A program made the translations under genes and the position numbers. Shown piece by piece: positions 14,667 to 51,960 of a stretch of DNA of 64,000 bases (position 1 is its first letter; every line of letters starts with the position of its first letter). The DNA lies in assembly GCA_963924555.1 (NCBI GenBank), contig OZ004585.1:8758556-8822555 (forward strand), in the 5' to 3' direction. The notes beneath the pieces were generated by a model. The model worked only from the letters and a program-made list of their open reading frames with translations. It did no database searches and was not told where the DNA came from. This DNA is from Crambe crambe. Its lineage: Eukaryota; Porifera; Demospongiae; Poecilosclerida; Crambeidae.

Positions 14667-17600
14667 ATGGACGCGCTCAGAATGCAACTAAGAGATTTAC
14701 TGATCATTTTCTTCTTTTGGTCTAGTTTGGCAGTCTTTTCATCTTCCCAAATACCTTCCTCCTTCCTCCTGGAAGGCCTTCGTGGACGAGTGGAACGTAA
14801 CCTTATCAGTTTCCAGTGCACAAATGCAGAAACAGCCCAACCTGCTCCCGATGCCATCTTCATGCTGAATGGCACGGAGCTGGGAGAAAAGGCGGGCAGA
14901 ACTCTCTCCAGAGGATCGAACCCCAACACCATTCTCTTCCAGATCACAAGGGAATTCGAAGGCAGCTATTCTTGTGGATTTCGTGTGGACAGGAATAATA
15001 TCAGAGTGAGCGATGGCGTTCTTTTTATCGGTAAAGGTAGTAAAATATTACCTAGATAGAAGAGTGTCTATCATGTTGTAATTCTGGATAGTTCAAAATG
15101 AAAACTGCTGAGACTTGAGAGCTCTATTTTGAAAAAAAATTTTTTTTCCTACTGTCTTATCTAGTAGATCATATAATAGCCTATATTTGAACCATCCGGA
15201 ATTTATTACCTGCAGTCTGAATATAGCTACACAGGATATTCATCTATTTACATGGAAGAATAGCCTCCTGGTTTATTCATTGCCAGATGCTATTAATAGG
15301 GTAAAACGGGGTAATTCCGGTCACTCTTTATGACTATGTTCAGTCCCTCGAAACGCAGAGGTTAAGCAAGGATGAGCTTCGAAATTTTTTTCCCAGACAG
15401 CACCACATTAGTACAGTTTATGCTCCAAAAAGATAGAGTGCAGGTTGAAATAATGTAGAATTAAAAATAATTTAAAGTGTGCAGCTAATAAATTGATAAA
15501 ATCAAATTCATGGGGTAATTCCAGTCGGCTCATCTATTTTGCAGTTAAAGCTGTATAAAAGATTTATGAAGTTGTATTATAATTATTTGCACCTGTTTAG
15601 ATGCAACATGGACCTGGAGACAGTTGTAACTAAGTTCTATCAACCATTTGCAGTGATTTAGATTGAAAAAGATGATGAATTCAATAATAATGTCTGGATA
15701 CTGTAATAGCATAGTCAATTCCTCTCCTCCTTGCCCAGAACCTTGAGGGTTACTTCTCTGGCAGTTCCAGATAAAGGTTAAAACTTAATACTTACAAAAA
15801 AATTTTTCACACACAATCGGTAAGGGGTCTGGCTCGAGAATAGTCTAGATACTAGGTCCTGTAAGCTGTAAACTAGTGGCGATATTTCCTCTGTCTGATC
15901 TTTAGCTGCAAACTAAAGTGTAGTTACTTTCAGTATAAATGTAGTTAACAGTCTCACAGTTATGAGCTGCCTGCTTGCCTTATCTCAGTAGCTATATACA
16001 AAATTCTGAAGTTTTGACTAACAGGCCTACCGTGATCATGTCAAACGTGACAGAATAACAAGTGCTCCTCTGCCAACAGGAAACAAGGTATATGCTAATC
16101 ATTCTACTCAAATGTAGTCAAGTGAACTAGCTACCTGTAGCAGGAAAAAAAAATTGATTTGGTGCAAAAACTCTGTAGATACTGACATTCTTTCTCCGCG
16201 TGACCGGAATTGCACCGCGACCGGAATTACCCCGCTTTACCCTAACCTATAAGGCACTCTTTTGATTAGCCATTTTACGATGTTATCTCCTCATGTAGCT
16301 CTTCCAGGGCCCTTCACTCCTGCTCATCCACAGACATTTGTCACTGAACTTGGTTCCAAGGCAGTACTCAACTGCTCCATATCCCCAGGTTGTCTCATTC
16401 AGCGATACTTTGTGACTTGGACCAACGGGACTTCAGGACGACCCTACACACAGAATCACTTAAGTCTTCCACCAATAAACACGCCAACATCTGATCCTCG
16501 CTACACGATTGACCCCTCCACTTTATCACTCAGGATATCAAATGTGGAGTTTGCTGATGCAGATTCTAACTACATCTGCATCCTGGGCGTGTCCAACCCT
16601 CCTGATAATACTGAGTTCTTCTACAATCAAACAAGATATACTAGTCTTGGACTCTTCATTTATAGTAAGCGGTAGCTGCAGATTTAACTGTTGTCTATTT
16701 ATAGTTATTCATTCCAGAACGACCTGTGATCACTGCGCCTCCAATATCCACTGTGATACCATTTGGGAAATCTTCTGTTTCCTTCAGCTGCAGAGCAGAG
16801 GGCTTTCCTTCTCCAATCATTACTTGGAGGCATGCTGGTCATAACATCACCTCCTCAGACAACAAGTACTTCATCTCATTCAATGTTTCTAATGAAGGAA
16901 AAGTGAACAGCAGTGTGCTTACCTTAATGAATCCTCAGATTAGTGACACAGGAATGATTGAGTGTCTTGCTGATGCGTCTCCAAATTCACATACTGTCAG
17001 CCTTCAACTGGCTGGTGCTGTAGCTTCCATCCCATTCACTGTTTTAGGTCAGTGACAAGTGATGTTACAGTATAACCTCAGGTTATCCGCACCTCCTTTA
17101 TCTGGAACCTCATTTATCTGGAACCTCATTTATCTAGTCTCCCGGGCCAGACTCGATTCTTTCCTTTTTCTTGGGGGGGGGAGGGGGGGTGGGGGAAAGA
17201 AAGAGTCTGGCCAAACTGCATTGGACGTTTTGTTTGTATTATGCCACAAAAATCGTGGCGGACATGCGCAGAAACAGCGTTGGAATTTTTAAACACTATA
17301 CATCACAGTAGCGGTTAATTTTTTATTGGCCAGCTGTTTAATGTTTTATCATGGTACGTCATAGTCAAAATGCAACACCTGCGCTATACCCCTATGATGC
17401 ATGCTGAGTCAGCACAAATAAAATGTCCAATTGAGACTATACATGCATTACAAGCATGTGTAATGGCATTATTTTTTGAGAGTGCTTTGTACAGACACAT
17501 AGTTTGATAGTTAGCTAGCTACAGCTACATCCAAAAAGTGTGTGGTTAGGTAAACCATACTAGAGTAAGTGATCAATTACCAGACAAATCAATTACCGAA

Positions 17601-19195
17601 CACTTTATCAAAAGATAGCCAATTGATAACTGATTCAGAATCCTGACTTTCAGTCATGACTGTTAATTCATATAGATTTTATACATCATTAAAACAGGTG
17701 TCCGAAAATATCAATAATCAGATCAATATTCAGACAGCAAAAAAATGGGTTGGTTAGCCATGACTGAAAGTCAGGATTCTGAATCCTTTTGATACCTAAA
17801 TGGTATAAACCAAATGCCAGAAAAAGTGTCTGGTAATTGATCTGTCTGATGATTAATCACTTACTCTAGTCTAGCTATGAAACCAACATAACCACAACAC
17901 TATTATAATATTATTGGACCACTTATCAGGCAGCCTGGAAAAAAAAGCTTGGACAAAGGTGTCCAGATAACCGAGGTTCGACTGTACTCCTGAAAGAGGT
18001 CAAACCTCAAAATTAACTGAATATAAAAGTAGCTAATTAGCTTTATACTCCATACAAAATAACCTCCAAGAAAGGACGACCTCTCTACAAACTGGGTCTC
18101 ATGATTGTGTGTTCATTATTTGGAGGTTCCACTGTAATAATAGACTGATTCTAAGTCTTGGATTGATGACATTTCTGTCTGTATGTAGGTGAATTTGCAA
18201 CTTCAAATGTCTTCATCACTACAACACGAAATGTCATCTTTTCGCTCACCTTCCCCACCATCCTCCATCCTGTCCAACTCCGATTCCGCTACCATGAAGT
18301 GGGTGGAGAGAAAAGATCTTTTAATGCCACTCCTCCAACAGTGTACAATAACACAGTGGAGATAAACTATTTTGCCCCTGGGGACTCCATACCCGACAAA
18401 TTTCGTGTTGAAATCTTTCTCCTTCATGGGTCTGTAGTTGGCCCTGGGAAAGACACCATGTTGATCTATGGTAACTTATTATATTAAAAATTTACTGAGT
18501 AGACTCTATTCTCTTATGATAAGATGATCAACTTGATTTCACTCTTAATTAATAATTTATATAATGCAGATAAAACAAAGCCCTCAGATATCTCAGGCCT
18601 TGTTCTTACTACTGCTCTTCCTAGTGTCCTAGTGACTGGTGTTGTTGCGATCATCATGATCTCTGTCATTTGTCTCTGCTTCACTTATCATTGTAAGAAA
18701 TCAAAGAACAAACATGAGGAAACAAACAACAAATGCGAACTGGAAAGTGAATTGGCCAAGCACGAGCAGGAAATTGCTGCAACACAGCAGGCTCACTCAA
18801 ACAAAATGGAGGAAATGGACATGACTCATTGGCATAAAATGGAGGAAGCTGAAATTGATGTGAGGATTGAGCAACAGGAGGCTATTAGTAGCACACTTGA
18901 TACCTTGAGGGCACAACTGTGCAAGGAGAGTAATTCAGAGATTAAGAAAGCATTGATTGATGGTCTAGTTGCACTCCATAGTGTCAGCGTCAGCAAACGT
19001 GTCAGAGAGGATGGAGGGGAACTGTGTTCTTCCGATGATGAACAAATTGATAGTATCACTGAAGATGTTGCGGAAAAATTCTCCAAGGTAGCAAAGCATA
19101 TTTTGGAACTAGGCTTCAAGAATGAAAAAATCAGTCCTCATCTTAAAAAGTCGGTTTCCACGGTGATGAAAGAACTCCCAGATGAAACTGAATGA
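14667..19195 (+). CDS. Ig receptor 1: SP, three Ig-like domains, Fn3-like, TM, coiled coil
   Basis: 655 residues from five exons with phase-1 introns: 14667-15030, 16299-16664, 16718-17047, 18189-18470, 18570-19195. Exon 1 has a signal peptide and an atypical Ig-like domain (ISFQC to EGSYSCGF, no core Trp). Exon 2 is a regular Ig (LNCSISPG, FVTW, YICIL). Exon 3 is an Ig (FSCRAEGFPSPIITW, MIECLA). Exon 4 is a cysteine-free, Fn3-like beta domain with KFRVEIFLLHG and VVGP. Exon 5 holds one TM helix, a charged coiled coil (about residues 490-560) and the conserved tail module ITEDVAEKFSKVAKHILELG. It is a type I surface protein; ligand unknown. Exons 1-2 are closest to receptor 3, exons 3-5 to receptor 2. 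The start was set at 14667, the ATG that opens the signal peptide. Confidence 0.85.
15299..16242. mobile_element. 944-bp element with GGGTAAA termini and TA duplication
   Basis: GGGTAAAACGGGGTAATTCC (15299) is mirrored by GGAATTACCCCGCTTTACCC ending at 16242, flanked by TA on both sides. TA duplication points to the Tc1/mariner superfamily. No transposase frame is present. It fills most of intron 1 of receptor 1. A 118-bp relative is at 61491-61608. Confidence 0.8.
17068..17984. mobile_element. 917-bp pogo/Tigger-like element with a nested fold-back
   Basis: The left end CAGTATAACCTCAGGTTATC and right end GATAACCGAGGTTCGACTG are inverted copies flanked by TA. Ends of the form CAGTNGAACCTC with TA duplication are typical of pogo-type elements. 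Within it, 17558-17875 is a second fold-back: CTAGAGTAAGTGATCAATTA is mirrored near 17875, and TGACTTTCAGTCATGACTG is mirrored at 17758-17775. It lies in intron 3 of receptor 1. Confidence 0.7.
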
Positions 19196-19360: not shown

Positions 19361-19366
19361 AATAAA
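19361..19366 (+). promoter_or_regulatory. Polyadenylation signal of Ig receptor 1
   Basis: AATAAA lies 166 bases after the stop codon of receptor 1, in an A-rich context. Confidence 0.5.
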
Positions 19367-20111: not shown

Positions 20112-20714
20112 TTATGATGTGACATGATACAATAACTTGCTATAGAGTTGTGTGCAATATTGTTCTAAGTGATAGTGCCTTTCAAAGGTTTCCTCGCAAG
20201 GAGTTGTGAGAAGGTGCAGCAGGTGCTTGAGTTCGCAGCCGAGGTGAACCTTGGTGATGTGGTCCGCAGGAAGGTTGCTCCTGCCGTACTTGTGCCCGCA
20301 CACAGGACAGGCAAAGTCATCTGTGAACACTGGGATGGTGATAACGCGAAGGACTGTGGCAATTGCCCTGGCGCCTCGAATACCTTGCTCCCTGGCCTCA
20401 TCCCATAGTCTCATCCAACTAATATCACGGGAGAGAGCAGCAAGGTTCTCACGTGAAGACACTAGGGACCAAATGTAGTCACGATCAGCAGCCTGGAGTT
20501 TGTCTTTAACTGCTCTCAGGGTGAGATGATTTTCAAAATTCTCTTCTTGCTGCAAAATAACTTCTGTCAGATTGGTCTTATAAACCTGCTCCAGGAACTT
20601 GCACTGCTGAATCACTAGTGGCTCAGAATCTTTCTCCCTCAGACAGTTGAATACCTCCACACTGATGGACACCTTTTGGGGTGTACGCACGTAATTTGCA
20701 CGTAAATTGCGCAT
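20112..20714 (-). CDS. Intronless protein with a C2H2-like zinc knuckle, unknown function
   Basis: A single open frame of 200 residues. It is mostly helical and charged, with one metal-binding-like motif near residues 135-157 (CPVCGHKYG then H and H: C-x2-C-x15-H-x4-H). I do not recognise the family. It could be an intronless host gene, a retrocopy, or part of a domesticated transposon. The only early ATG (20714) lies inside an NRF1-type palindrome, 41 bases from the ATG of receptor 2 on the other strand, so the two must share one very short promoter if both are expressed. Confidence 0.55.
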   Translation of the reverse strand: MRNLRANYVRTPQKVSISVEVFNCLREKDSEPLVIQQCKFLEQVYKTNLTEVILQQEENFENHLTLRAVKDKLQAADRDYIWSLVSSRENLAALSRDISWMRLWDEAREQGIRGARAIATVLRVITIPVFTDDFACPVCGHKYGRSNLPADHITKVHLGCELKHLLHLLTTPCEETFERHYHLEQYCTQLYSKLLYHVTS

Positions 20715-20755
20715 GCGTATGATTAAAAAACCGCAAGAAAATTAAGGCTGCAGCT
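20708..20755. promoter_or_regulatory. Very short divergent promoter with NRF1-type palindrome
   Basis: TGCGCATGCGTA at 20708-20719 lies between the zinc-knuckle gene (-) and Ig receptor 2 (+, ATG at 20756) and overlaps the start codon of the former. Confidence 0.5.
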
Positions 20756-23700
20756 ATGGTATTTGTGCTGGCGTTCTCTCTCTTAATCTTCTCGTTGCCT
20801 TCATGTTTGTGCACCACAGGCTCACCTCCATATATCCTGGAATACTCACGTGGCAGGTTCGCAGACACCCTCAACCTTCTTACTCTCGTCTGCACTGACA
20901 CTGCCACAGCCCAGCCCATCCCCAATGCAGTCTTCTTCCGAAATGGTGTCATATTTTTCGCCTTGAGCAGTTCTGAAATGAGCCTTCCAGAGAGACCAAT
21001 TCCTCAGAGAGTATTTCGGACAGGAATGAACCTGGATCGCATCCTGTTTGCTCTCACCCGTCAAGCAGAGGGGAATTATTCCTGTGGGGTGCGTCAAGAT
21101 GAATTGAATTTCATCAGAAGTCCTTCTCTTCAGTTTGTTGGTAAAAAGATCTGATTAGCTAGATGTCACACCCGTACCCAACACTTAAAGTTAACTGTAG
21201 CTAATACTGTTATGGTGCATTAATCAGAGTTTATGTAATAATTATTATCACAAAGCTGTGTGTGGTATAGAATTAAAAGTACAGAGATAATTGTGGTTAT
21301 ATTTGATTGAATTCCTTACATTATACTAGTCTACTATATATTTAGCAATATGATAGACATAGCCCAGAATAGACTCCAATTTTTCATACTGTCCTGATAT
21401 TAGGATCCACCCTCCCGACTGGTGTTGGAAAGAGCTAGTCACATTGCTTTAACACATAGCTAGGAATTCAAACTACTTATGCATGATTATGGTACTAGCT
21501 AGTATTTATTGCAAGGGCTAGCTGTGTCTTTTTGATTTGATTCATTCTCTTGTCTTATTGTGTTCCCCACCTCCTCCCCCCTCACAGCATTCCCCATCTC
21601 CTCCTCTGCTACCCCTCCCCCGTCCCAATCTTTCTTTGCTAAAGTGGGCTCCCAGGCGCGTGTCAAATGCCCACAGCAACCAGGCCAACTCTTCCAGCAG
21701 TACTTTGGCCGATGGAGGAACATCTCGTCGGGTGAAGTGTTTGCAGAAATTCGCAGCCCAACTACTCGATCTTTAGGTTCCTCTCCCTCCAGCAACCCTG
21801 TCTCCCGATACAGCATAGAAGCAGAGACTTTTTCTCTCGTGGTTGATAATGCAATGCTGTCTGATTCCGGTAATTGGTACCAGTGTGAGCTTGAGGTGCA
21901 AGACCCCCTTGATGTAAACGGAAGGAGTTTTTCATATGGTGCATCGGAGAGTCAAGAATTGCTGGTATACAGTAAGTGGCAGTTTACTTACCATCTCCAC
22001 ACCAAATTTAGAAGGTCACCTTGTTATAGAGTTTAGAAGGTCGCCTTGTTATAGAGTTTAGAAGGTCACCTTGTTATAAGAGTTTAGAAGGTCCCCTTGT
22101 TATAGAGTTTAGAAGGTCGCCTTGTTATAGAGTTTAGAAGGTCGCCTTGTTATAGAGTTTAGAAGGTCGCCTTGTTATAGAGTTTAGAAGGTCGCCTTGT
22201 TATAGAGTTTAGAAGGTCGCCTTGTTATAGAGTTTAGAAGGTCGCCTTGTTATAGAGTTTAGAAGGTCACCTTGTTATAGAGTTTAGAAGGTCACCTTGT
22301 TATGGAGTTTAGAAGGTCACCTTGTTATAAGTTTAGAAGGTCACCTTGTTATAGAGTTTTTTTGTTTCTTTCCAGGAGCGCCCATCATCAATGTGTCTCC
22401 AGTATCCACGGTGATATCTGTCAGCGAAGCAACTGCTACTTTCAACTGCAGAGCTGAAGGACTTTTCTCCCCAATCATCACCTGGAGACATGCTAATCGA
22501 AACATCACCTCCAGGGACACCAGATATGTCATCGCCTTTGAAGAATTTGATACTTCTGAGGGAGGGAGAGGATCGAGCAGTGTGCTGAGGTTGTTGAATC
22601 CAAGCGTCAGAGACACGGGTGAGGTTGAGTGTTTGGCCGACGCTGCTCCCAGTCTGCAGACAAACAATCTCCAACTGCCTGGAGATGCAGTCTCCGTCCC
22701 CTTCACTGTTCTAGGTATGTTGTAGTTCCATAACAGGAGTTGTGTGGTGTGGTGTGCATTAGGAGAGGATGGGAGGTGGGGGGAAGTAAGGGAGGATGAC
22801 GTGGGTGGGAGGGGGGATAGTAGGTGAGGGAAGTAGGCAAGAGTGCTGTGCAGGGTCATACGTACATATCACACAGTAGAGAGTTTAGGGGATTCTGCAG
22901 ATCTATAGATTATTATGAGGGAGTTTAATGAATGGAGCATATTGGAGTACAATTAAGATATTAACTTCATCGTGGTCAAAATTTCCCTTCAAAATGCCAT
23001 ATTATGATGAATCTTACTCCGCAGGGAAGAGGATAAGATTATCTCTTACTATTGTGTTGGGATTGAACTCTATAGGGGAAGATTTCCCAGCCCTTATTGT
23101 ACTACATCACTTTTAAGGCTGCTACCCAAAACAAGACTAACCAGTCTAAATCAAAAATTGTCTTCATTCCTTTGACCTTATTGTTTGTCCTGGATCTTCA
23201 GGGGATATCTCCCTCTGTCTCAGATGTGTTTTATTATTTGGGTTAAGAGAGAGAGAGAGGGTTCATTCCATGGGGATTGATAATCATTCTGTAATCCTAG
23301 CTTTTTTTTCAAGTGAGCATTTTTGCAGCTGCCAGGGGCAGAGTTTGAAACGTCTATAGGCTTAGGTCTTCACCACACATAAATTCATAAGCATTTGCTC
23401 AATGATCCTTTGAGGAAATTAGCTTAAGACTGTGTAAATTAGATTATTGATCATTCCTAGCCTTAGCCATAGCCATAGCCATAGCCCCTAGCCCTCCCAA
23501 GCCCTAGCCCCTGGCCCTAGCCCTAGCCATAGCCATAGCCATAGCCCCTAGCCCTAGCCCCTGGCCCTAGCCCTAGCCATAGCCCCTGGCCCTAGCCATA
23601 GCCATAGCCCCTGGCCCTCCCAAGCCATAGCCCCTAGCCCTAGCCCTAGCCCTAGCCCTCATAGGTTTCTCGATTCTTGCTTAAGATACCAGCTTGGTGG

Positions 23701-26700
23701 GTTCAGCACGTTATTAAAAGCAGGCAGGAAAAATTCACTTTTTATTTACCATGGGAACTATAATTATAACAAGCAACTTATTTGTGCAGGTGAATTTGAT
23801 GCTTTGGACGTCTTCATCACCACCACCCAAGACGTCATATTTTCCCTCACCTTCCCCGTCGCTCCCCTCCATCCCGTCCAGCTTCAATTCCTCTATCACG
23901 AGGTGGGTGGAGCTGGAAGGAGTGTCAACGTGACTCCGAGCATGATGTACTTGAACGTGACGGAGATGAACTACATAGCTCCAGATAGCTCCGTGCCTTA
24001 CGACAGGTTTCGTGTGGAGATCTTTCTAGTTCACGGAGTGGTCGTTGGTCCTGGAAGAGACACTACACTAAAATATGGTACAGAGTATACTAATTGTGAT
24101 TTTCTTGTTTTGAGTGCATAATTAGGCATCAGTCTATTATGCTAATTTTTTGGCCTTTCATGCTTTTGAGCAATTCCAGGCCTGTAGCCAGCAGGCGGCT
24201 CAACAGGCTTGAGCCCCCCCCCCCCCCCCCCTTTGATGGAAATGAAATGATTATAGACTTGCATTAGTTTGCAATTGATGACCATAAATTTTAGTTCTCA
24301 CACATTAAAAATATCTTAGCTGAGTAACAATCTTCATTTTTCTAAAATCCTGGCTACAGGGCTGAATTCCCCTAAACGGTTTGCTTTTAATTACGCCTGT
24401 TTGACCTCATTATGCTCTAGATAGTGCCCATAATCTTACTTTGAAAATCAAGGTTTTCTTTCTACACACACACTTACTCAGCCTAAAGATAGTTCAGTCA
24501 TGTTGTAGCTAGCTATAATGCACTGATAAGATGTCATTATTGCATGCATTCCAATGATACACGATTTATAAATAATATGGTTCATGAGATAACTAAGCAT
24601 CACTTGCTTCCTTAACGTTTGGTCTATAAAAATATATTTGGACACTTTTTTTTGCATAATATGCCTGAAAATTCACCTATTATGGTCTCAATTGTAATGA
24701 TACATTTATTATTATTGAAAGGTAAGAAATGGAAAATTATGCTTCTGCTATGATGCTCGGCAGTACCTATCATGCCTAAACATAATAGGCTGGTCCTTAA
24801 GTTCACAAAATTCACACAAAAAATTTGACCCCACAAAAATAATCTGTGCTGTATGATTGCTATAGGCTACGAGTAACAGTCCTGAGTAAAGGGATCTGTG
24901 TAGTGCATATATCCAGTGAAAGGAAGGGTAGCAGCAACTTTAGGGTGACCTGTTGCTTAATGGGCATCATAAGTACAGGCCCTTACGCAGGATTTTGAAA
25001 AGAGGGGTTACTAGGTTAATACACATGGAAAACCACACCCATTTTAATGACCAAGGGAAGATGGAAATACACATTCCTACATGCATACACTGTTACTTTG
25101 ATCATCAAGTTGTTAATTGTGTAGACCAATTCAACCTAAACAGTTTCTAATCAATGAATTCAAAGGGGGGTTAGCACCTCCCCTGTGTACGGGCCTGAAG
25201 TATTTTAGGTGTACTATTTGGAAAATGACAAAACCGCGAGTGAATTTGATACTGATAACAGAATCCACTGAAAGTATTTGAACCTCTCCAAGAATTCGGA
25301 ATATGAAACGCCCATTTACCTAATTCTCTCTGAATATTGAGCATGACCATAAAAAGGGGTTCAGGTTTCAGTCCAGTGGGAAAGTACAAAGAAGGAGAGT
25401 TAGGAAGGAGTTAATGATAGGGGCAAGTACAAGGCAGGGGTTAATCAAGAGTTAATGATAGGGCAAGTACAAGGAAGGGGTTAATCAAGAGTTAATGATA
25501 GGGGCAAGTACAAGGAAGGGGTGATCACGAGTTAATGATAGGGGCAAGTACAAGGAAGGGGTTAATCAAGAGTTAATGATAGGGGCAAGTACAAGGAAGG
25601 GGTTAATCAAGAGTTAATGATAGGGGCAAGTACAAGGAAGGGGTAATCATGAGTTAATGATAGGGGCAAGTACAAGGAAGGGGTAATCAAGAGTTAATGA
25701 TAGGGGCAAGTACAAGGAAGGGGTTAATCAAGAGTTAATGATAGGGGCAAGTACAAGGAAGGGGTAATCATGAGTTAATGATAGGGGCAAGTACAAGGAA
25801 GGGGTAATCATGAGTTAATGATAGGGGCAAGTACAAGGAAGGGGTAATCATGAGTTAATGATAGGGGCAAGTACAAGGAAGGGGAGAATTTGCTTTGTTG
25901 CTTTGATTTCCCTCCTTTCCAATGTTACTACAATGATGTAATGGAGTTTGGCAGGTCAATTCTCCCTTTACCTTTTTTGCAGATAAAACAGAACCTTCTC
26001 AAGTGGCAGAGATTATCCGTGAAGCCGTCCTTCCCAGTGTTCTAATCCCCATAATCCTTGGCATCCTGATAATCTCCATTCTTATTGTGACTCTTTACTA
26101 TCTTCACCGCCAGAAGAAACTGAAATACAAACATGAAGTGCGGAGAACCGAGAGCCAGAGGAGAAAGCTTGAAGAGGACCATAGTTTCGAGCTACAGAGA
26201 CTCAATAGTGGACGGTTGAAGATTGAGACAGATTACAAACATGAACTGGACACAAAGAAAGAAGATTACCAGCGGAAGATTGCGGAGATGGAAGTGGCAC
26301 ACAAGCATAAGATTGAAACGAAAGAGAAGGCGATTTTAGAGTTGGAGCTGAATCATAAGCATGACATGGAAACTAAGGAACAAGCCTGCCTTAGGAGGAT
26401 TGAGAAGATGGAAGTGGAGCATAAGCATAAGATTGAAGTGAAGGAGAAGGAAATGAAAGAGATGGAGCTATGCCACAAACATAATATCGAGACTAAAGAC
26501 AAGGAGCTTGACGAGAAGAAGGTGGAACTTCAGAAGATCACAAAAGAATTTGAGATGAGTATTAAAGAGAAGCAAGCTGAGACGAATGAAAAGGTCCAAC
26601 ATCAATGGTCCAACAGCATCAACGACACCATTGAGCTGCTAAGGGAGCAGTTGGCTAAAGACGAGAACACATCAGAAGTGAAATTCCTCAAGCTTCTTGA

Positions 26701-27271
26701 CGTTTTAGCGATTGCTCTTACAGTGAAACCAGCATACCTTAGAATGTCTACTTCTTCAATACATATTGAACAGCAGTCACCAATGAGTTCCTTGTCAATG
26801 AATTATTCTGCTAACGCCCACAAGGAAGATGCCGCTCATGAAAAGCAATCCCTCGAAAGAAAAGGTGGTAATGAAGTGAATGCAATTAGATTTTCTCATG
26901 ATACTGACAATGATGATGTTGACGGACCTTATTCGATAGATGTTGCTGATTTTGTTGAACCTTGCGACACCATCGATGGAGGACACTACTCTGATGAAGA
27001 TCGTTCTTCATTAACATGCATTAAGAGTAGGGGCACGGCATCAGTCTGTACTCAATCACCTGGAAGGGTGATGTTTGATGGAGGAGAAGAGATCCAATCA
27101 TCATCAGATGAGATTGATCAAGAAGGCCACATCACTGAAGCAGTTGCAGAAAAGTTTGCCATTGTTGCTCGTCGAATGTTGGAACTGGGGTTCCAGAACC
27201 AGAGAATCAATCCATATCTCAAAGGTTCCATCACTTCAGTGATGAGTGAGATCCATGGTGATGCTGAATAA
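20756..27271 (+). CDS. Ig receptor 2: like receptor 1, with a long KHK coiled-coil tail
   Basis: 894 residues from exons 20756-21140, 21588-21971, 22376-22714, 23790-24077 and 25983-27271, all phase 1. Exon 1: signal peptide and atypical Ig-like domain (LVC to EGNYSCG). Exon 2: Ig with VKCPQQPG, FGRWRN and WYQCEL. Exon 3: Ig with NCRAEG, IITWRHA and VECLADA. Exon 4: Fn3-like with RFRVEIFLVHG and VVGPG. Exon 5: TM helix then a coiled coil of about 170 residues containing four copies of HKH(K/D/N)(I/M)E every 18-22 residues. An acidic Ser-rich linker and the tail module ITEAVAEKFAIVARRMLELG follow. It is a type I receptor with the longest cytoplasmic tail of the family. Introns 2 and 4 are swollen by minisatellites. 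Confidence 0.85.
22012..22360. repeat. ~25-bp minisatellite in receptor-2 intron 2
   Basis: About 14 copies of the unit TTAGAAGGTCGCCTTGTTAT-AGAG, alternating GTCGCC and GTCACC variants, end just before the polypyrimidine tract of exon 3. Confidence 0.9.
23455..23664. repeat. CCATAG/CCCTAG hexamer array
   Basis: About 200 bases of mixed CCATAG and CCCTAG hexamers in intron 3 of receptor 2. It is telomere-like in composition but differs from CCCTAA. Confidence 0.85.
24976..25197. mobile_element. ~220-bp MITE with CAGGCCC termini
   Basis: CAGGCCCTTACGCAGG (24976) is mirrored by CCTGTGTACGGGCCTG (to 25197); the body is noncoding. A related end (CCAGGCCTGTAGCCAGCAGG with poly-C) is at 24177-24232. 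Confidence 0.55.
25386..25882. repeat. 40-bp minisatellite in receptor-2 intron 4
   Basis: About 12 tandem copies of a 37-41-bp unit containing GAGTTAATGATAGGGGCAAG and TACAAGGAAGGGG. Copies are nearly identical, so the array is young and probably variable in length. Confidence 0.95.
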
Positions 27272-27733: not shown

Positions 27734-29578
27734 TTATTGCAGTTGGGTTTCCTTCTGCTCTTCGATGATTACTTCTTCTGGAGGTGCAGCAGAGGAAGGA
27801 GCAGGTGCGGAAAGGAGAGGCTGGTAAACATGGCTCCCTGATTCTGAACTTGGGTTAGAGGAATTCAAGCCAGTTGTGGCATAATACTTGTCCTTCCAGT
27901 GCTGTTTCAGTTGAGGTACCTCCATCAAAGTATCGACCATCTCTTTCATGCGGGATACAACTTTGCTTTGCTGCCTTGAAAGCTGCCTGTTGAGAAGTCT
28001 AGGAGGAGGATTGGGACAGTCTGTCATATCCTCCGTTGGCAGATCCTTGCTTGCCTTTTTCAGCACAGTGTTGCAGTTCTTTGTCGCCACGTGAGGCTTT
28101 TTGTTGTGAATCCGGCAAATCAGAGTCATGATGATGATAAAGACAAAGAGAAGGAAGAAAAAGATGACTGGAGTGGCAGCTGCTACGATTATCCGGAACA
28201 TTGTGATATCTGTGGATATGACAGTCGGCCGGGAAGTATCTGTATGTGTGTGAGGGGGTGTGGAGTAGTTAATGGAGGACGGCAGGTACATAAGATAACA
28301 GTAAGTTGATAAATCTACTCCCTCCCTCTTTGTCAACTTTCAATACTCTCTCAATTCCTCTCCTTGCCTTGACTCCTCCCCCTTCTCCCCCCCTTCCCTC
28401 TTCCCATTCTTCATCCCCTCCTCACTTTCCCCCTCTAGCTTCCCCCTCCTCCCCCCACCCCATCCCCCCCCCCCCTCCCCATTGCCAAACATCCTTGTGA
28501 CTCACCATACACCAGAGGCATAGAGTCCAGAGGCCCAGCAGTGAGAGAGATACTGTCTATAATGCCCACACTGACACGAAACCTCGGGAAGGGGATACGG
28601 GACCTGAACTCAATGTGGATGATGTTGTTGGTGTTATTGAAGGAGATGGTGGTGGTCCTATTATAGGGCATACCCGTCGCCGCGTCCGTGTACATCAACA
28701 GGAGATGTACAGGGATGTTGATGGTGCTACGGAGACGAAGCTTATAAATCACATCTCCATCTTGTGTGACTATTATATCCTTGTTCTTGAATCGACCTAC
28801 AAGGAGAGAAGAAATTTAAAAAACTTCATCATGACAACTGCTTTGAGGTGCATGTGTGTGCAGTGGAATCTTCAGGAACAAAGAACGATCTATTTTATGC
28901 GCTCTACGTAAACTCCAAAAGAGGACAACCTCCCAACAAAGGACAAAAGGCTAGGTCCCATGGCAAAGTGTGTTCATTATTCAGACTGTACATACCTGAA
29001 AGAGTGCTAAAGGAAAATTTAAAGACAAGAAGCTCTCGGACTTCTACTTTCTATTTGTACAGTTTAGAGAAATTGGATAAGAAAAGGGGTAAGAATTTCC
29101 ATTACATGATTTACATCTGCCCCAGACAGACAACATTACTTCAATGATGCTCAGTCTTTCACTTTCTCCTGCCCCACGAAAAAAAAAAGGGGGGCCAGGA
29201 TACAAGGCTACATGATCACACTTACCAAGGACAGAGAGCCTGGCCTTCCTGGTGTCACTAGGGACAACCTGTCCACCTGTGTTCTCTGCACTGGATAGCA
29301 CACTGGCCACACACTCGACTGACCCGGTACTTCTAGCCGACAGGGAGAAGATGCGGATGGTCCCGTGAATCATGTATCCCCGTCCCTGGGGATCTGGAAC
29401 AGGATCAGACTGTGAGGGAACGTATGTCTGGGGTGAGGTAGCATTTACTCTCCATGTTATCTTTGGGGCAGGATCACCTACAGCTGTGCAGTTGAAGCTC
29501 GTTTGTCTAGCACTCTTTAAGGACACTGTTTGATCAGTGGGTGGGACTATGATCCTTGGTGCTTCTGTAGGTAGAAAA

Positions 29579-29623
<45 letters not shown>

Positions 29624-30963
29624 GGGGGGGGGGAAGAACGTAAATACCCAGAGCATGAATACTCACTGTTCTATAGTAAATGTTTCAGGGCTTTGTTGTT
29701 GTAATATTTTTGCACACTTGTTAGTGTACAGTATTTTACAAAAAAAAATAATCTGCAATTAAAGTTTATTATTAAAATTTTATTACTGTATTGTATGAAA
29801 TTTGAACATTTTCAGTCCTGTGTATAAGTGAGCATGCTCAGTCCTGTGTATAAGTGAGCATGCTCAGTCCTGTGTATAAGTGAGCATGCTCAGTCCTGTG
29901 TATAAGTGAGCATGCTCAGTCCTATGCATGTGCTTCAAAACAATAATTCACTATTCCCAACACAGTGAGCATATTCAATTATGCCGAATTTAGTATTGTT
30001 TTCTGAAGCCCTTGGGCCATGCATACAAGTTGTCATTACTTGCACACGCTCAGACGCACACAAGAATGCAAGCACTTAGAACCATTAACTCACTCAAATT
30101 GTCCCAACTTTAGTATTACCCACTGATTGTTTGGACTTGGTCATTTATCATTCATGATGAATGATAAATAATGATGGTTAATTTTCACTATAAACTATTA
30201 AACACTAGCTATAGTGAATAACAATACTTCCTGATCCAAAATTCAACCCTTCTATTTATTACCAGGATGGCTCTATCAATCAGGACACCTCTCTAGATAG
30301 GACACCTCTCTAATCAGGACACTAATCTAACAACAATCTAAACAGGACACTTTGTTCTGGTCCCCAAAGTGTTCACATTGAGAGGTGCCCACGCAATGCA
30401 TTATCGCTGGAATCATGCTTGAATAAGGTCATGTTGAGATCAATTTTCACTACTTGCAGCCGGACCAAGTAGAATTATTTTGTAACACTGCATCTCTAGA
30501 GACAACACGACTCATTATACATTTTATGAGTCATCTGCTGCCTGCTGAAGGGGAATTTAGGATTTTAAACTGTTTTGGGGTGTAATGAAAACTTACTGGC
30601 GCTACTTACAGCCCCACATCCTATGAGGAAGGACACACATCCTATGAGGGGGGTGTCAGACCAGTGCATAACGTGATGTGTCTATAATTATTATAATCAA
30701 GACTGCAGCATAATAAGTGTGTTTCAAGCCAGCCAAGCTAGAGACTCAGAATGCCTTCAAATCACCAGTGCATAACGTGTGATGTGAAATTATAATACTC
30801 TACAAAGGTCAGCCAAGCTGCTTATCAACACACACTATACACATAGGAATCTGCATATAATAATATACCTAATTCTGGTGTTTCAACTCTTAGTGTCCAT
30901 TAATTTTGTGTTTACTTGATTTGTTGATGGTTCATTCTAACTGCTATGACTTTCTCCATTCTT

Positions 30964-31007
<44 letters not shown>

Positions 31008-36300: not shown

Positions 36301-37785
36301 TTGAGCAGTCTCTGTAGCGATCACTTCCATCTGCTCTGAGATGTAGCGAGCAACACACTCTACAATGCCGCTATCGAATCCCTCCAGATTCTTGACAGTC
36401 AAGACGCTATTGGATACCATACCCCCAACTTCTCTATTGTTGTTGGGCATTGATCTCGTTGAAATGTCGTATTTGTCTCCATCCTCTGCCACGCGTTCAT
36501 TATGTCTCCAGGTTATGTACGGATGACGAGGGGAACTTAAAACAGAGCACTTGAAGGTGACATTGGAGGCTGTCTGTAAAGTAACCACCTCCGAATCCGG
36601 TCCAGTGATAAATGTAGGAGGTTCTATGGAGAAGAGAAGATAACTGAAGTGCTAAAGTGTCCCTAAATCTTCGAATCAGGGTATTATTTTTATCGCTGAA
36701 GGGATCCCCTCTCCTAGATTAGCGGTGTTTCTGCCCCCATATTTCAATATTCAAAGTCCCTTCTAATTAGTCTTTACTGTTAGAGATCACATGGTTGTGT
36801 TTGAAAGTTTTTGTTGAACTCTCACCTTTATGATAACTTTTTTACTTATGGAATACTTACTGAAAATTGAAAGCCTTAAGTTTGCATTTTCTGTCTGGTG
36901 GTAAACGTAATCGCTCCTCAGTTCTTCCACTCCCAGCACACACTGGTAAGGTGTCTCACTGTCTGAGGGAGTCACGTCATCAATGAAGAGAGAGAAGTTA
37001 TTATAGTCCAGTGAGTAGCGATCGCTGAGGCGAATTGGAGCAGCATTATCTGCACGCAATCTTAGTGGTGGGATTTTGAAGAACTCGATGGTGTTATTGG
37101 AGGCATTTCTCCATGTGACGTAATATTGAGATACAAGGGCTCCTGGCGTGATGGAACAGTCCAGACGAGCCGTTGAACCAGTGGATGCAAAGGAGGTCCT
37201 GATCACTGGATCCTCACCATTGTTCGGTCGAGCTGTGTGCATGCATCAACAGAGAATATGTCAAAAGATTTTGTACGTGGGCTTATTATTATTATTTTAT
37301 TATTATTGTTGTTGTTGTTGTTGTTGTTATTATTATTATCTTTCAGCATTCAGTTTGTACTGCTATACCAAACCCACAGAACCAGATTATCACAAAACTT
37401 GTGGTTGGTAAATCAACTGCAGCTAGATATTCTTACTTTTGTCAATGATAAGCTTACCTACAAGTTGTATCGGAGGGCTCTGAGTTACACTACCAAAGGT
37501 CTCTGAGCCGCATCGGTAGCTTCCTTCATAAAGAGGGCGAATTAAATAAAGAACCCCCTCCGGGATTTCGGTAGCCCCTGGTAATTCGAAGCGACTCCCA
37601 TTCAAGAAGAAGTCGGCATCTCTCTGGAGGACCGTACTAGCGGCATCCCTACACTCCAGAATCACTAGGTTCCAGTCCACAGGGTCATCACTTCTCGAAA
37701 CGACCAAGAGAGAGTACTCTATTGGCTGCGCAGGTAGAGACAGCAAGAAACTGCCGAATGCTAGGAAAGTTAGAGTCGTTTTCAT
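33398..37785 (-). CDS. Ig receptor 4
   Basis: 601 residues from exons 37458-37785, 36861-37232, 36282-36623, 34489-34776 and 33398-33873, all phase 1. Exon 1: signal peptide (MKTTLTFLAFGSFLLSLPAQ) and atypical Ig-like domain (VILEC to EGSYRCG, FFLNG in place of the Trp strand). Exon 2: Ig (LDCSITPG, YYVTWRNAS, YQCVL). Exon 3: Ig (FKCSVLSSP, YITWRHN, VECVA). Exon 4: Fn3-like (SFKVEVRVVHDG, VGPP). Exon 5: TM helix, a short Cys-rich stretch and the tail module FTEETAKEYAKAVESAI, without a long coiled coil. The ATG at 37785 was chosen because it opens directly into the signal peptide. Receptor 5 ends 129 bases upstream. Confidence 0.83.
37276..37338. repeat. (TTA/TTG)n trinucleotide tract
   Basis: A simple repeat in intron 1 of receptor 4. 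Confidence 0.9.
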
Positions 37786-37913: not shown

Positions 37914-42360
<4,447 letters not shown>

Positions 42361-44507: not shown

Positions 44508-47426
44508 CTAGTTGGATTCTTCTTCAATGATGCGCTGAGCAATAAGAACGCATTCATGTGCCAGTTTCATACATTCTTCATCATATCCTTCATCTATTTC
44601 ACTGCTGTCGTCTTTGTGTGATCTGAGAGGACCCCCATCAAATTGGATTCTTTTTCCTTTAACGTGTTCTATCAGTCTACTGAAACCTTCTAATTCTCCC
44701 TCTTTATACTTCAGTTGTCCCCTTACACTTTCCAACACTGTTCTCATGGTAACCAACTCTTTCTCGGTCTTATCCAATGCAGACTCCTTCTCTCGTAGTC
44801 TTGTTCTTGTGTGTTTATGATTGTTCTTCTCGGTTTCTACCTGTTGATTCACAATGATCAACTTTTCCTTAGTTTCCTCTAATTCCTTTTCTGTATCTTT
44901 CAAATTCTTCTCTGCAGTGGATAAATTTTCTCTCTCTGTTTCCAATTTTTTGCTCGTATTGTCATGATTGTTTAATTCTACTGTGTAATCTCTTTCTGCA
45001 TTGTTTTTTTTCTTGGAGAGATGCATACAGATGATGAAAGCAACCAGTGCACCAATGAGCAAGAGCGTGAAGATTATAGCAAGGGGGACAATGAAGAACA
45101 GGAGGGTCTTGTCTGCAGTAATAAATATACAGTAAAAGGGGGGGAGGGGAGGAGGAGGACGAGGGGAGAGGGGAGGGGAAAGGGGAGGGGAAAGGGGAGG
45201 AGGAGAGGGGAAGGGGAGAAGAAGGGATCGAGGGGGAAGAAGGGGAGGCCCAAGGGGGAGGGGGAAAGGGGAGGGGAAGAGAAGGCTGGAGGAGGAATTA
45301 GTAGTCTGGTACAGCCAACCCTTTACCATCTTTAAATTACATGTTAGACCAACTTTCCAGCTATGCCAGACTATCTTCCCCCACCCACAACTTCCACTCT
45401 AGTGATCTGCTTACTGAATTTGCTATATTTTTCTCCATTTCCACTGTAAGGTCCAACTGTATCCTTGTGAGCAAATGCCACTTCTACTCTGAAGAAATCA
45501 TAAGGAATAAAGTCTCTCTCCAGTGTGACACTGATCTTATCCTCATCCATGAATGGACCATAGCTCCTTGGCATTGAGTTCCCAGTGGCAACTTCAATGA
45601 AGCGAACGTTGAGTCTTAAAGGACTGAGGGAGAGTTGAGGAGGAGTCATTATCACAAGCACCTTCTCACCATGTATTGTCTGAAGGATCCTGAAACCATT
45701 ATGTTTGCCTGCATACATGATCATCATACGAGTCATTAAAAACCCGGTTCCCAAAAACCTGGGGAATCTCGTGGAGTGTTTGAGGTTACTATGTCACTAT
45801 GAACTCTTACCACAGAGCTCATAGAGTATTATATCACTCTTAGTATCTTACCACAGAGAGGAACTGACAGTAACTGACTACCTTAAGTGGTATTTGCCTG
45901 CAGACTATAATACTTCCATGTTGAATAAATTACTCACCTATAACAGAGAGCTCTGAGTGACTTTCATCCATTTCGATACCGTCCTCTGACTGGACCACAG
46001 CTACACACTCCACAGGTCCTGAATCAATTGCATCAAGTGCTAAGATAGTCAGGAAACTCTGGACAACGAAGTCGTTACTCCTTTCTGTACGGTTGGTCAT
46101 ATTAATTGCATACTTTTGATCAGTGACTGACACGTTTCTTCCTTTGTGCTTCCACATGATCACAGCCCTACCAGGAGAGCTCCTTGCTTCACACATGAAA
46201 GTAGTGCTTGAATCCTCAGTTGACAAAACTCGCATTTCTGGAAGTCTCTTTGTAATATGTGGGTTCCCTGAAGTCAAAGCAATACTAGCTCACATCATTA
46301 ATTAAAGAAAATTAGCTAGGGTAGAAGGTAATAGGGGGATTCTTTTCCTGTGTGACCAAATTAAAACCACAGTTAAGGGTAATTGCTTCCAAGGATCTTC
46401 CAGCATACACCATGAGGGGGTCTGCATGCATATGGGTACGAGGTTAACACCATGGATTGGCAAACTTGAACTCCTCTGGTTTAACAAGGTCTACTATCTA
46501 GTTAAACCCTAAAGAGTGAAAAGCTGTTGCTAAGCAGCTAGAGATTTCTTAGTATAGTGTTGTACTCACTGATGACAGTAAGCCTTTGTGTAGCTCTTTG
46601 TGTCTGGTTGTAAGGAAGTAGGCCTATGTTGAAATCTTGTACTTCCAGCAAACACCAGTAAGAAACAGCTCCATCCGCAAAATCGGCATCTCTTATGGAG
46701 AGTGAGAAGCTGTTTGGATTGATGGTATATTTCAGTGCTCCTAAGGCATTTGGTACAGGAGGTATGGCTGCAAATATAGTGCTTTGGTTAGAAGCATCGA
46801 CCCATCGGACGTGGTACCGAGATAGCTCTCTTCCTGGTGTTATCGAACAGTTGAGATTAGCAGTGGATCCGAGCATAGCTTCAAAAGTCCGTGATTCTGC
46901 TGTAATGGAGTTTTCTGGGCGAGCTACAGAATAATATAGCCATTAGCTAATGCATCATAATTATCAGCTGCAAGGAAATTTGTTCATGCAATGATTGCAG
47001 GGTATGAGCCTCAGCCTGTGAAGGCTGAGGAAACTCTTGGACTCAGAAACTGCATGATGCATTGATTTCTTCTTATAAAGATTTATTCTCACCTACTATG
47101 CGGATGGGTGAGCTACGCACTTCACCCAACCTGCAAGTGTAGTTGCCTTCAAAATTTCTGCTGATGGTCACTCGAGCTATCCCATTGCTGCCCACAAAGG
47201 CCCCAGGAAAAGGAACGTCATTGTAGTAGATGAGAGCATTGGTGGCAGGTATGGTGGGCAACCCATCCTCATCCAAAACGTGACATCTGAATTCTATCAA
47301 GTTCCAGGTGACAGGATCTGTATCAGATCTGGAGTGTATGAAATCCAACTCTAATTCTTGCGAGCTTGGTGTGCTCAGCACCACATTCAGCAATATGAGA
47401 GCTGCTACTATTAACTTGTAGTTCAT
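44508..47426 (-). CDS. Ig receptor 6, coiled-coil tail
   Basis: 638 residues from exons 47093-47426, 46570-46923, 45938-46267, 45415-45708 and 44508-45112, all phase 1. Exon 1: signal peptide (MNYKLIVAALILLNVVLS) and atypical Ig-like domain (IEFRC to EGNYTCRL). Exon 2: Ig (LNCSITPG, YHVRWVDAS, YWCLL). Exon 3: Ig (FMCEARSSPG, VIMWKH, VECVA). Exon 4: Fn3-like (FFRVEVAFAHKDTVGPYSG). Exon 5: TM helix, a coiled coil of about 110 residues rich in Glu/Lys, and an acidic end SSEIDEGYDEECMKLAHE that matches receptor 5. A TTTCAG acceptor three bases before the ATG suggests a noncoding 5' exon near 47510-47560. Neighbouring intron sequence is CT-rich. Confidence 0.85.
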
Positions 47427-48339: not shown

Positions 48340-48715
48340 ATCATAATAAAAGACCCTATTCTTGCGTGCAGTCTTTTGTATGATTTCAACACACTTGCTT
48401 CTCCAGTTACTTTCTGTAGGTTCACTAAAATCGGCTACAGTCTTTTTATTCACAGTCCCTTCAGTCTTTCTACCTTCACTAGCTACCTTCAGTCGATGCG
48501 GATAAACATAGCATTCTAATTTCTCCTAATCTTTTATCTATTATAGTTCTGTCAATCTTCTCTCTAATCACCTCTGTCTTATCATCTAAAGCTTGTTTTT
48601 TTATTCTTCAAGTCTTTCCAGCAATAAATACTGATAATAACGACCAGAAAAATGGTAACAAGTAGGAGGAATACAAGGAGGCACAAAGGAAGAATGAGGT
48701 CAAAATCTGCAGAGA
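48340..48715 (-). pseudogene. Dead copy of the receptor-7 TM/tail exon
   Basis: It aligns with receptor-7 exon 5 and its flank. The acceptor and TM helix are preserved (DLILPLCLLVFLLLVTIFLV). A one-base gain in an A run then shifts the frame into a stop, much of the coiled coil is lost, and a tail (EPTESNWRSKCVEIIQK) still resembles receptor 7. Flanking sequence including the adjacent MITE is also duplicated, so a segment of about 0.6-0.7 kb was copied in tandem. Confidence 0.8.
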
Positions 48716-48743
48716 TTTAATAGGCACCACATTACTCTCAATA

Positions 48744-48895
48744 CAGTAGAACCTCCGAATAATGGACAGACTTGGGACCCATCCTTTTGGCCTCTATAGA
48801 GAGGGCGTCCTCTTTTGGAGGTTATTTTATAAAAGGTACTTTAAGAATTGAGAGGTTTGTCCTCTTTTGGAGTGTCCCTATCAGAGGTTCCACTG
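48744..48895. mobile_element. 152-bp MITE, CAGTAGAACCTC family
   Basis: CAGTAGAACCTCC is mirrored by AGAGGTTCCACTG, flanked by TA. Its twin, partly deleted, is at about 49984-50118 beside receptor 7, confirming the tandem duplication. Confidence 0.75.
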
Positions 48896-48935
48896 TATAA
48901 CTATGTAACTACAATAGTATAATAGTTACTATTAT

Positions 48936-49300
48936 GGACACGCAATCTTCATCATGTCCCGCTGCGCATGCCCAGCAAGGGGTTAAGTACTGTGTACTGT
49001 GCTGTGTGGTCACAAATTGGTCCCGTCAACATCTGCTAAGTGCTTGGGCCATTGGTGGTTATGGGACCTCTCTTCTGACAAAGCCATCGATGAAGCCATT
49101 GAGAAAGCAAGGAAATACTTCTTTGCTTATGGTGCTGCAGGTGCTTTTGATGGCCAGCTGAACCCCTCTCAGGAAGAGCCATTTTTGAAGCATGTGTTGA
49201 ACCGGTTCTCCTTTACAACTGTGAGAACTGGTTCCTCACCGAGCCTCTTCTTGCTAAGCTGGTGTTATTTCAAGCTGAGATCAGTGCCTCAGGGACATTG
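48936..49300 (+). mobile_element. Decayed LINE reverse-transcriptase C-terminal fragment
   Basis: Two frames together give a protein typical of the end of non-LTR retrotransposon reverse transcriptases: AIDEAIEKARKYFFAYGAAG then, after a frame change, LLYNCENWFLTEPLLAKL. No start, no full domain and several frame breaks. It is a dead fragment. Confidence 0.65.
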
Positions 49301-49436
49301 AACTCTATATTATGAGCTCTAATTGTTTTCATGTGACTGAATATTATTATACCTAGTAGGTACCTGGTCTTAATACAATGAAAAAAATACAAAAGACTAC
49401 AAGATAGTTTGCAATTTGGAAAAACTATAGAAGATC

Positions 49437-51960
49437 CTATTCTTCTTGTGAACATTCTCTGATAGACTCGATGATTTTAACACATTCACTCAATAGACTC
49501 ATGTAGTCAGGAGTTGGTTCACAAAAATCCTCCTTTGTAGTTGCCTTTTTTCCATTTTCAGTCACTTCAGATGCAGCCATCATTGTGGGCAAACTGCAAA
49601 TTTTTGAATCCTCACCAAGCTTCATACCATTTTTGAGGAATTCCAACAAGTTGTCAATTCTTGCATTCAGTTTTCTTTTCTCTTCTCTATAATATTCTTT
49701 CTCTTCTCTAAGTTCCTTTCTTAATTCATTCTTCTCTCTTGTATGGTTTTCTATTAATCCATCCTTCTCTCTCGTGAGGTTTTTAATTAATCCATTCTTC
49801 TCTCTAATTGATCCATTTTCCACCTCTAAAGCTTTTTTTTTATTCCTCAAGTCTTTCCAGCAATAAACACTGATAATGATGACCAAAAAAATGGTAACAA
49901 GTAGAAGGAATACAAGGAGGCATAAAGGAAGAATGAGGTCCAAATCTGCAGAGATTTAATAGGCACCACATTACTCTCAATACAGTAGAGACTTGGGACC
50001 CATCCTTTTGGCCTTTATAGAGAGGTTGTCCTCTTTTGGAGGTTATTTCATACAAGGTACTTTAAGAATTGAGAGGTCTGTTGTCTTTTGGAGTGTCCCT
50101 TATCAGAGGTTCCACAGTAACTACGCACAATTATTATATTACTTAATTCTCACTGGATTTATTGTATCTTTTCCCATCTGTTTTGTAAGGTCCCACCGTG
50201 GTGTCGTCATAAGCAAAGGCAACATGTACTGTGAAAAGATCAAAGGGGATATTGCCACGGTACAGCACAAAGTAGAACACATTAGTATCATTGATGTACT
50301 GGTCGGGGTTCCTCAAGGCTGTGTGTCCAGTATGGACCTCGGTGAAGCGAATATTAAACCTGAGTGGAACGAGGGAGTGTACATTAGCGTTTACTACAAA
50401 CGTTAAGTGTCCGTGGATGTTCTGAAGGATGTCAAGAGAATTGAATTCACCTACATCAGTCATACAAAAGAACAGATAATAATTGAAGAGGGCTCCTCAA
50501 TTTAACATCAAGGTTTTCAAGATCCAAACAAATAGATAAATAAATAAATAAATAAATAAATAAACAAACACACAAATAAATAAATAAACAAACAAATAAA
50601 CAAATAAATAAATAAATAAATAAACAAAGAAACAAATAAATAAATAAATAAATAAATAACCCACCTAGGAAAAAGAGCATTGATTGGCTCCTATCTGTTT
50701 CATTGGTTGCAGTTTCAGCAATACACTCAACACTTCCTGAATCGTGGACCTCAGGGTTGAAGATGGTCAGGAAACTCTGAACGATAAAATCATTACTACC
50801 ATCTGTCAGGTTGGTTTCATTCATTGCAAACTTTAGGTTGTTGGTTGAAATACTTTTCTCTTTGTGCTTCCATGTTATCACAGGGCGGTCGGAAGAACTC
50901 CGTGCTTCACACTTGAAGGTGACAACCGTCAAATTTTCTAGAGATAATATTTTTTCCTTTGGGAGATTTTCTGTGATTCGCATGTTCCCTACAAGTAAAA
51001 TATGATCAATGATCAGAATAATTAAGGACCAGAACTATCCTTACTCCAAAAACAGGTTTTATTACTATTAATATATAGTGACTCACTTAAAACAACTAAA
51101 GTTTGTTTGGCAGTTCTTATCTGTGTGAAGTTATATCTCCGATTGGTGGTGGCATCCTGGACTTGTAATAAACAGAGGTAAGTATTACCATCAGAAAGAT
51201 GAGAATCACGTATAAAGAGAGAGAAGTTGCTACGTTCGATGGAGTATCTTTGGTCCCCTACAGTATTCAGTGCTGTGGGATCGATGGCTGCAAATATTCT
51301 GTTCTGTTTGAAAGCATCGACCCATCGGACGTAGTACAGGGATAACTCTCTCCCAGGGGTTATCGGACAATCAAGACGAGTGGTGAATCCAAATCTGGCT
51401 GACATTATCCGTGAGGGTGCTTCAATGGGATTATTATCTGGATATGCTGTGGGATTGTTAGATTCATGCTATGTAATGACACTTGACACTAGCTATGTGC
51501 AAGAGTTTTATAAAAATTTCACCATCTAGCAGTATTGGTATAGGCATCATATTTAAAAAAAAAACAACTGAACGATAGACCTCAATGTTCAGTACATGCA
51601 GACTGTGCCAAAGTGCTTACCCACGATACGGATGGCTCTACTTCGTAAGTCCCCCAGTCTGCAAGTGTAATTTCCCTCCAGGGATCTGTTGACTACAACT
51701 AAAGCAATTCCATTGTCATTCAAAAGATCTAGAGGGAGCTGTATTTCATTGGAGTAGATCACCAGGGTTGAGTTTGTAGATACAAAATCTCCATGTTCAT
51801 CCACCATTCGACATCTAAATTCTATTAAGTTCCAGGTCACTGGGTCGTCTTCATTTCTTGGTGTGTTTAAGATAAAATCTAAGCTTTGTTCTTGAGTGCT
51901 GAGGGCAACAGTCAGCAATATTAGGGCAGTTGAAAGTAGCTTGAAGTTCTTCTGATCCAT
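49437..51960 (-). CDS. Ig receptor 7, coiled-coil tail, most compact gene
   Basis: 609 residues from exons 51621-51960, 51087-51446, 50665-50988, 50154-50450 and 49437-49945, all phase 1, spanning only 2.5 kb. Exon 1: signal peptide and atypical Ig-like domain (IEFRC to EGNYTCRL). Exon 2: Ig (LDCPITPG, YYVRWVDA, YLCLL). Exon 3: Ig (FKCEARSSSD, VITWKH, VECIA), using a GTGGGT donor. Exon 4: Fn3-like (LFTVHVAFAYDD, VGPY). Exon 5: TM helix, a Glu/Lys coiled coil with LTREK/HTREK repeats, and the end PDYMSLLSECVKIIESI. The tail keeps a tyrosine where receptors 5 and 6 have EGYD. Its terminal exon has a dead copy at 48340. Confidence 0.85.
50525..50660. repeat. (TAAA/CAAA)n tract in receptor-7 intron 3
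   Basis: A simple AAAT/AAAC repeat that directly follows exon 3 on the minus strand. Confidence 0.9.

Follow-up and report, generated by a model that had tools for sequence, protein, structure and literature searches.

What does a compact cluster of immunoglobulin (Ig) receptor genes do in a sponge, and how did it come to be diverse? We addressed this question for a 64,000-nucleotide stretch of the genome of the demosponge Crambe crambe (contig OZ004585.1 of assembly GCA_963924555.1), called the window in the following, in which seven predicted genes (g1 to g7) occupy positions 14667-51960. To our knowledge, the genes for self/non-self discrimination in sponges are not settled. The explanation we prefer, and consider probable, is that the cluster encodes a lineage-restricted family of type I surface Ig recognition or adhesion receptors that was diversified by duplication and exon exchange.

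From the reading frames, splice signals and assembly of the window we obtained five coding exons for each gene. Two genes are encoded on the plus strand: g1 (14667..19195; exons 14667-15030, 16299-16664, 16718-17047, 18189-18470 and 18570-19195) with 655 amino acids (aa), and g2 (20756..27271; exons 20756-21140, 21588-21971, 22376-22714, 23790-24077 and 25983-27271) with 894 aa. The remaining five are on the minus strand: g3 (27734..33149; exons 33149-32807, 31553-31194, 29564-29226, 28796-28506 and 28239-27734; 612 aa), g4 (33398..37785; exons 37785-37458, 37232-36861, 36623-36282, 34776-34489 and 33873-33398; 601 aa), g5 (37914..42360; exons 42360-42039, 41364-41008, 39757-39431, 39050-38748 and 38410-37914; 601 aa), g6 (44508..47426; exons 47426-47093, 46923-46570, 46267-45938, 45708-45415 and 45112-44508; 638 aa) and g7 (49437..51960; exons 51960-51621, 51446-51087, 50988-50665, 50450-50154 and 49945-49437; 609 aa). 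Protein lengths thus span 601-894 aa. Splice sites were picked by consensus and by agreement between paralogues, and the gene models are predictions from genomic sequence. All 28 predicted introns are GT-AG and in phase 1, a count worth about four independent introns since the seven genes are duplicates. Every spliced coding sequence has one stop only, at its end, and no internal stop (7/7 models). In g1, g3, g5, g6 and g7 the exon-2 acceptor is followed by another AG 9 nt further on. An earlier sequence-only reading of this DNA had proposed seven intact five-exon genes with phase-1 introns that close in frame within the same outer coordinates. The assembled models agree with this proposal, and together with the genome searches described below they also support the shared plan and the clustering.

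All seven proteins have the same domain order: an Ig domain lacking the tryptophan (D1), a V-set Ig domain (D2), an I-set Ig domain (D3), an Fn3-like domain (D4) and a transmembrane (TM) segment with a tail. By hydropathy each protein starts with a hydrophobic, signal-like segment, and D4 is followed by a strong membrane segment; g6 has an extra marginal one (1.61) within D3. With an Ig-fold ectodomain and, as judged by hydropathy, a signal peptide and a single TM segment, the proteins fit type I receptors of the Ig superfamily. Counted over the whole protein, 7-14 N-glycosylation sequons are present. D1 carries two cysteines with no tryptophan between them in 7/7 proteins. No single Pfam Ig model matched more than 2/7 of the D1 domains at E ≤ 1, and the weak matches found were to Ig_3 in 2/7 and to Ig_2 in 2/7. 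A D1 profile matched Ig proteins of the PDB, best FcRL5 and carcinoembryonic antigen and also CEACAM, contactin and neurotrimin entries, and the predicted fold was Ig-like at a predicted local distance difference test (pLDDT) value of 72. When scanned alone, D2 matched the V-set model in 7/7 proteins and the I-set model in 6/7 at E ≤ 1; in the whole-protein scan V-set was above its cut-off in 4/7, and the best PDB match of the D2 profile was CD4. The best Ig_3 match of each protein was above the curated cut-off and lay in D3 (7/7).

D4 is a different case, as 0/7 domains matched any Pfam family, Fn3 included, at E ≤ 10. Its structure model is confident (pLDDT 90.6) and has many Fn3 domains among its structural neighbours; no Foldseek match reached E 0.001, and glycoside-hydrolase beta sandwiches were among the top VIA rows. 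The label Fn3-like is therefore one of predicted fold and not of sequence. From the domain order that had been read from the letters, the atypical D1, the Ig domains D2 and D3 and the TM/tail exon are retained, while the Fn3-like D4 is retained by fold and not by a Pfam match. The best PDB profile matches of D1 and D2 give the proteins a likeness to vertebrate Ig receptors of the CEACAM, FcR/FcRL and CD4 type, which goes no further than the Ig domain itself.

One domain per exon with phase-1 flanks is the form of class 1-1 exon-shuffled modules, and the cluster genes have this form. Excerpts of PMC8001218 state that shuffled extracellular modules in animals follow this form as a rule. We compared 48 Pfam-ig exons drawn from eight other stretches of this genome, using a crude site score: the best donor was in phase 1 in 44/48 and the best acceptor in 35/48. 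Since phase 1 prevails in other Ig exons here and class 1-1 is the rule in animals, the five-exon phase-1 plan is ordinary, a local norm, and the idea that it marks these genes as special finds no support. In excerpts of PMC12909245, a study that counted immune-type domains in sponge genomes, I-set and V-set come out as the commonest, with 637 I-set and 564-594 V-set sequences in the sponge Dysidea avara. The cluster genes share this plan with the modular, exon-shuffled Ig/Fn3 receptors of class 1-1 in Metazoa; they stand apart in that exchange between paralogues can be demonstrated and in that no other locus yielded their D2 and D4.

The exchange is seen in g1. By pairwise aa identity per exon, g1 is nearest to g3 in D1 (77%) and D2 (57%) and nearest to g2 in D3 (55%), D4 (66%) and the tail (40%). 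A tree of D1+D2 joined g1 with g3 (99/99) and rejected g1+g2 (approximately unbiased, AU, test, p 0.00885), whereas a tree of D3+D4+tail joined g1 with g2 (100/100) and rejected g1+g3 (AU p 6.6e-6). Single domains pointed in the same direction (p 0.049 for D1, 0.047 for D2, 0.001 for D3 and 0.012 for D4). At the DNA level the similarity of g1 to g3 stops at 16669 and that to g2 begins at 16708, both within the 53 bp intron 2 of g1 (16665..16717, plus strand), and according to DNA identities and trees g1 is closest to g3 upstream of this intron and to g2 downstream of it. As DNA similarity between paralogues generally ends near exon edges, the switch site is placed only roughly. Exchange between paralogues has thus happened at least once, either by g1 combining a g3-like D1-D2 with a g2-like D3-D4-tail or by g3 receiving D1-D2 from g1. 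The earlier proposal that the exons are swappable finds support here, the mosaic of g1, g2 and g3 being evidence of real exchange. Like the architecture and the clustering, this mosaic history is carried by the DNA itself.

A younger event is suggested by D1. Over 14745..15014 (plus strand) g1 is identical to g3 (32823..33092, minus strand) in 249/270 nt (92%), with a nonsynonymous rate (dN) of 0.059 and a synonymous rate (dS) of 0.163, and this tract is limited to the D1 part of exon 1. In D2 the dS between the two genes is 0.92; the 95% bootstrap ranges were 0.10-0.34 for the last 90 D1 codons and 0.61-1.60 for D2. Gene conversion or a recent exon exchange is the likely origin of the tract, and the far lower dS in D1 than in D2 suggests a later conversion of D1 alone. 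Among the seven genes D1 identity ranges from 19 to 77%, most paralogue pairs have less than 60% aa identity per exon, and the tails differ.

The ratio dN/dS was 0.18-0.45 in 10/11 ectodomain comparisons with dS below 1.5 and 0.75 in the eleventh. Two tail comparisons gave 0.64 and 0.72, such that all 13 measurable comparisons were below 1. Judged by these ratios the coding sequence of the cluster is under constraint, i.e. purifying selection.

How far the family extends was assessed by searching the ectodomains of g6, g1 and g4 against the whole genome (143.1 Mb in 119 contigs of one assembly, with the window on contig C8). Matches to D1, D2 and D4 all fell inside the window, and outside it the matches of all three queries involved the generic D3. 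The g6 query had 1/21 matches at E ≤ 0.1 outside C8, in D3, and the g4 query 2/25 at E ≤ 1, both in the D3 part. For g1 57/76 matches were outside C8 (best E 5.9e-6, among the best 99 of 137 candidates); all of them involved D3, and a few reached the neighbouring ends of D2 or D4. Sensitivity was gauged with the g4 query, which found the D2 and the D4 of every one of the seven genes, with E 0.35 for the weakest D4. Recovery of D1 was low, with three D1 exons for g6, three for g1, and for g4 its own and that of g1 at E 0.6. The D2/D4 family appears to be confined to the window, less surely so D1. Protein searches of 5.8 billion sequences matched only generic Ig proteins, and a profile of 6/7 proteins searched against them returned six matches, none named Alr, among the best 7999 candidates of a shared-word search. 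From these searches we infer a lineage restriction. The genome searches with g6, g1 and g4 found no second haplotype copy of the cluster in the assembly. The available portions of the reviews PMC11999971 and PMC12018476 mention no such cluster; they speak of Ig adhesion molecules in sponges and of a receptor kinase from Geodia.

The preferred explanation would work as follows. A membrane-distal pair, the tryptophan-less D1 and the V-set D2, would be presented on a stalk of the I-set D3 and the Fn3-like D4, followed by a single TM helix and a tail that is charged and varies between the genes. Growth of the family would have come from local tandem and inverted duplication, and recombination and gene conversion between neighbours would swap tips and stalks with the frame intact, because every domain is a phase-1 exon. 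D1-D2 may bind a ligand on another cell or on a microbe. That the proteins act in surface recognition or adhesion we infer from the fold and the behaviour of the family.

Several points weigh against this explanation. Adhesion molecules share both the fold and the family behaviour, and the receptors themselves are predictions from DNA and modelled structures. The D1 search was weak (1-3 D1 per query at E ≤ 0.1), so that relatives of D1 elsewhere could be missed. Tree building relied on LG+G4, a simple model, while the domains are short and divergent; the tested clades were named after the identities had been seen, and with one domain at a time p is no lower than 0.049 for D1 and 0.047 for D2. 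The D1 domains of g1 and g3 were homogenised, which is contrary to pure diversification. No raised dN/dS was seen in the distal domains where dS was measurable; all but one of the D1 comparisons were saturated or failed, and seven sequences are too few for site-level selection.

Among known recognition systems, the allorecognition (Alr) complex of Hydractinia had been named as a likeness. In Alr proteins the V-set-like domain comes first, i.e. distal, while here it is second (D2 in 7/7). The cluster further has a membrane-proximal Fn3-like domain and comprises seven genes compared to at least 41 loci in Hydractinia. Its tails show no immunoreceptor tyrosine-based inhibitory, activation or switch motif (ITIM, ITAM, ITSM; 0/7). 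As described in parts of the respective papers, Alr genes of Hydractinia symbiolongicarpus encode linked, diverse single-pass Ig-superfamily proteins of low mutual identity (PMC11067881), have V-set-like hypervariable domains and intracellular motifs similar to immunoregulatory motifs, and seem to pass sequence to one another (PMC3276163); in the related Podocoryna 22 lie within the complex and further ones elsewhere (PMC13119343), and background on polymorphic loci is found in an excerpt of PMC8129030. The likeness therefore holds for the layout, with type I Ig proteins in one genomic interval and loci trading sequence as in the g1/g2/g3 mosaic, but not for the V-set position or the ITIM/ITAM tail motifs. 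The usual candidates for allorecognition in sponges are reportedly the aggregation factors, which are Calx-beta proteins. They resemble the cluster as clustered sponge surface or adhesion genes and differ in their Calx-beta repeats, for which the seven proteins gave no match at E ≤ 1.

Allorecognition and immunity are narrower versions of the preferred explanation, and their probabilities overlap with it. An immune or symbiont-recognition family, in which microbial or altered-self ligands are bound by variable tips and receptor variety comes from duplication and exon exchange, is possible though on the doubtful side: seven diverged tips on a common stalk plan with different tails would fit it, as would the abundance of I-set and V-set domains in the sponge genomes of one study (PMC12909245, in part), while the tails hold no known signalling motif and dN/dS stays below 1 throughout. 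Purifying selection and the CEACAM, contactin and neurotrimin matches of D1 would suit plain adhesion or developmental signalling paralogues with no recognition diversity, and adhesion molecules typically combine Ig with Fn3-like domains in their ectodomains. Against this unlikely reading stand a family confined to one cluster, exchanged distal domains and very different tails, which would be unlike the usual conserved adhesion genes.

More specifically, the cluster could be a sponge allorecognition locus or part of one, in which polymorphic D1-D2 bind the same allele on a neighbour and the tails signal fusion or rejection, as for Alr1/Alr2. In any animal such a locus is defined by high allelic polymorphism and by its co-segregation with fusion or rejection. 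Clustered type I Ig receptors with exchange between loci, as suggested for the Hydractinia complex (PMC3276163, in part), are in line with this, and the way sponges respond to grafts implies that a polymorphic system underlies it (excerpt of PMC5450542). We nevertheless regard it as improbable, given the V-set domain in second place, tails devoid of ITIM, ITAM and ITSM patterns, no Calx-beta match on C8 among the best 150 of 1021, no second haplotype copy showing diversity, and denser Ig arrays on contigs C12 and C19 (best 150 of 971 matches), which make this locus one of several candidates. A still bolder version, to which we give little credence, would make the 37-kb cluster a demosponge histocompatibility locus with exchangeable V-set-containing tips as self labels, Alr-like but put together independently, close to the root of the animals, out of class 1-1 exons. 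Finally, wrong joins, pseudogenes or misassembly might mimic family and mosaic, which the way the splice sites were chosen would allow; this is very improbable, since seven models are in frame with matching junctions, the coding sequence is constrained, most pairs are too diverged for assembler collapse and the DNA similarity between pairs ends close to the exon boundaries.

Further features were noted in the window and the genome. The beginning of the g7 TM exon is present a second time, at 88% identity, at 48585..48897 (minus strand, from DNA comparison) with an intact acceptor; its frame ends soon after the TM segment, such that it is either a decayed or an alternative short-tail exon. Two open frames between cluster genes belong to repeated elements, 42654-43574 with 97-99% copies on C16 and C20, and 20112-20741 with about 20 near-full-length copies genome-wide at 94-96%; both are probably young insertions. 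Just upstream of g1 is a death-domain reading frame (14208-14513; Pfam Death 2.7e-06, over the cut-off). Many Pfam-ig matches, none of them in the cluster, are found at C12:6.28-6.67 Mb and C19:6.34-6.43 Mb among the best 150 of 971, and these arrays are rival candidates for any recognition locus. Within 3 kb examined at C19:6417033-6421295, similar Ig exons repeat in tandem (period about 370 bp, 8.2 copies, 88% matches), as either alternative exons or a repeated multi-Ig gene. Large Calx-beta arrays at C10:5.7-6.6 Mb and C3:5.6-5.8 Mb (best 150 of 1021) are perhaps aggregation-factor-type genes. At C15:872855-884857 (12 kb) a DNA pattern for what we take to be the silicatein active-site motif occurs six times in alternating orientation with a repeat of about 5 kb, and not at all in the reversed control. 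Of the solved structures, silicatein alpha is the best match to a translated piece (5.4e-14), with cathepsins behind it, and we read the region as a tandem silicatein array. Silicatein fits a demosponge genome and so supports the sponge origin that the earlier reading had left as a condition.

For the sponge, this compact cluster of intact receptor genes, whose distal domains bear signs of exchange, offers a concrete candidate recognition locus that is easy to genotype. Should its role lie in immunity or adhesion, the cluster still shows class 1-1 exon exchange between demosponge paralogues.

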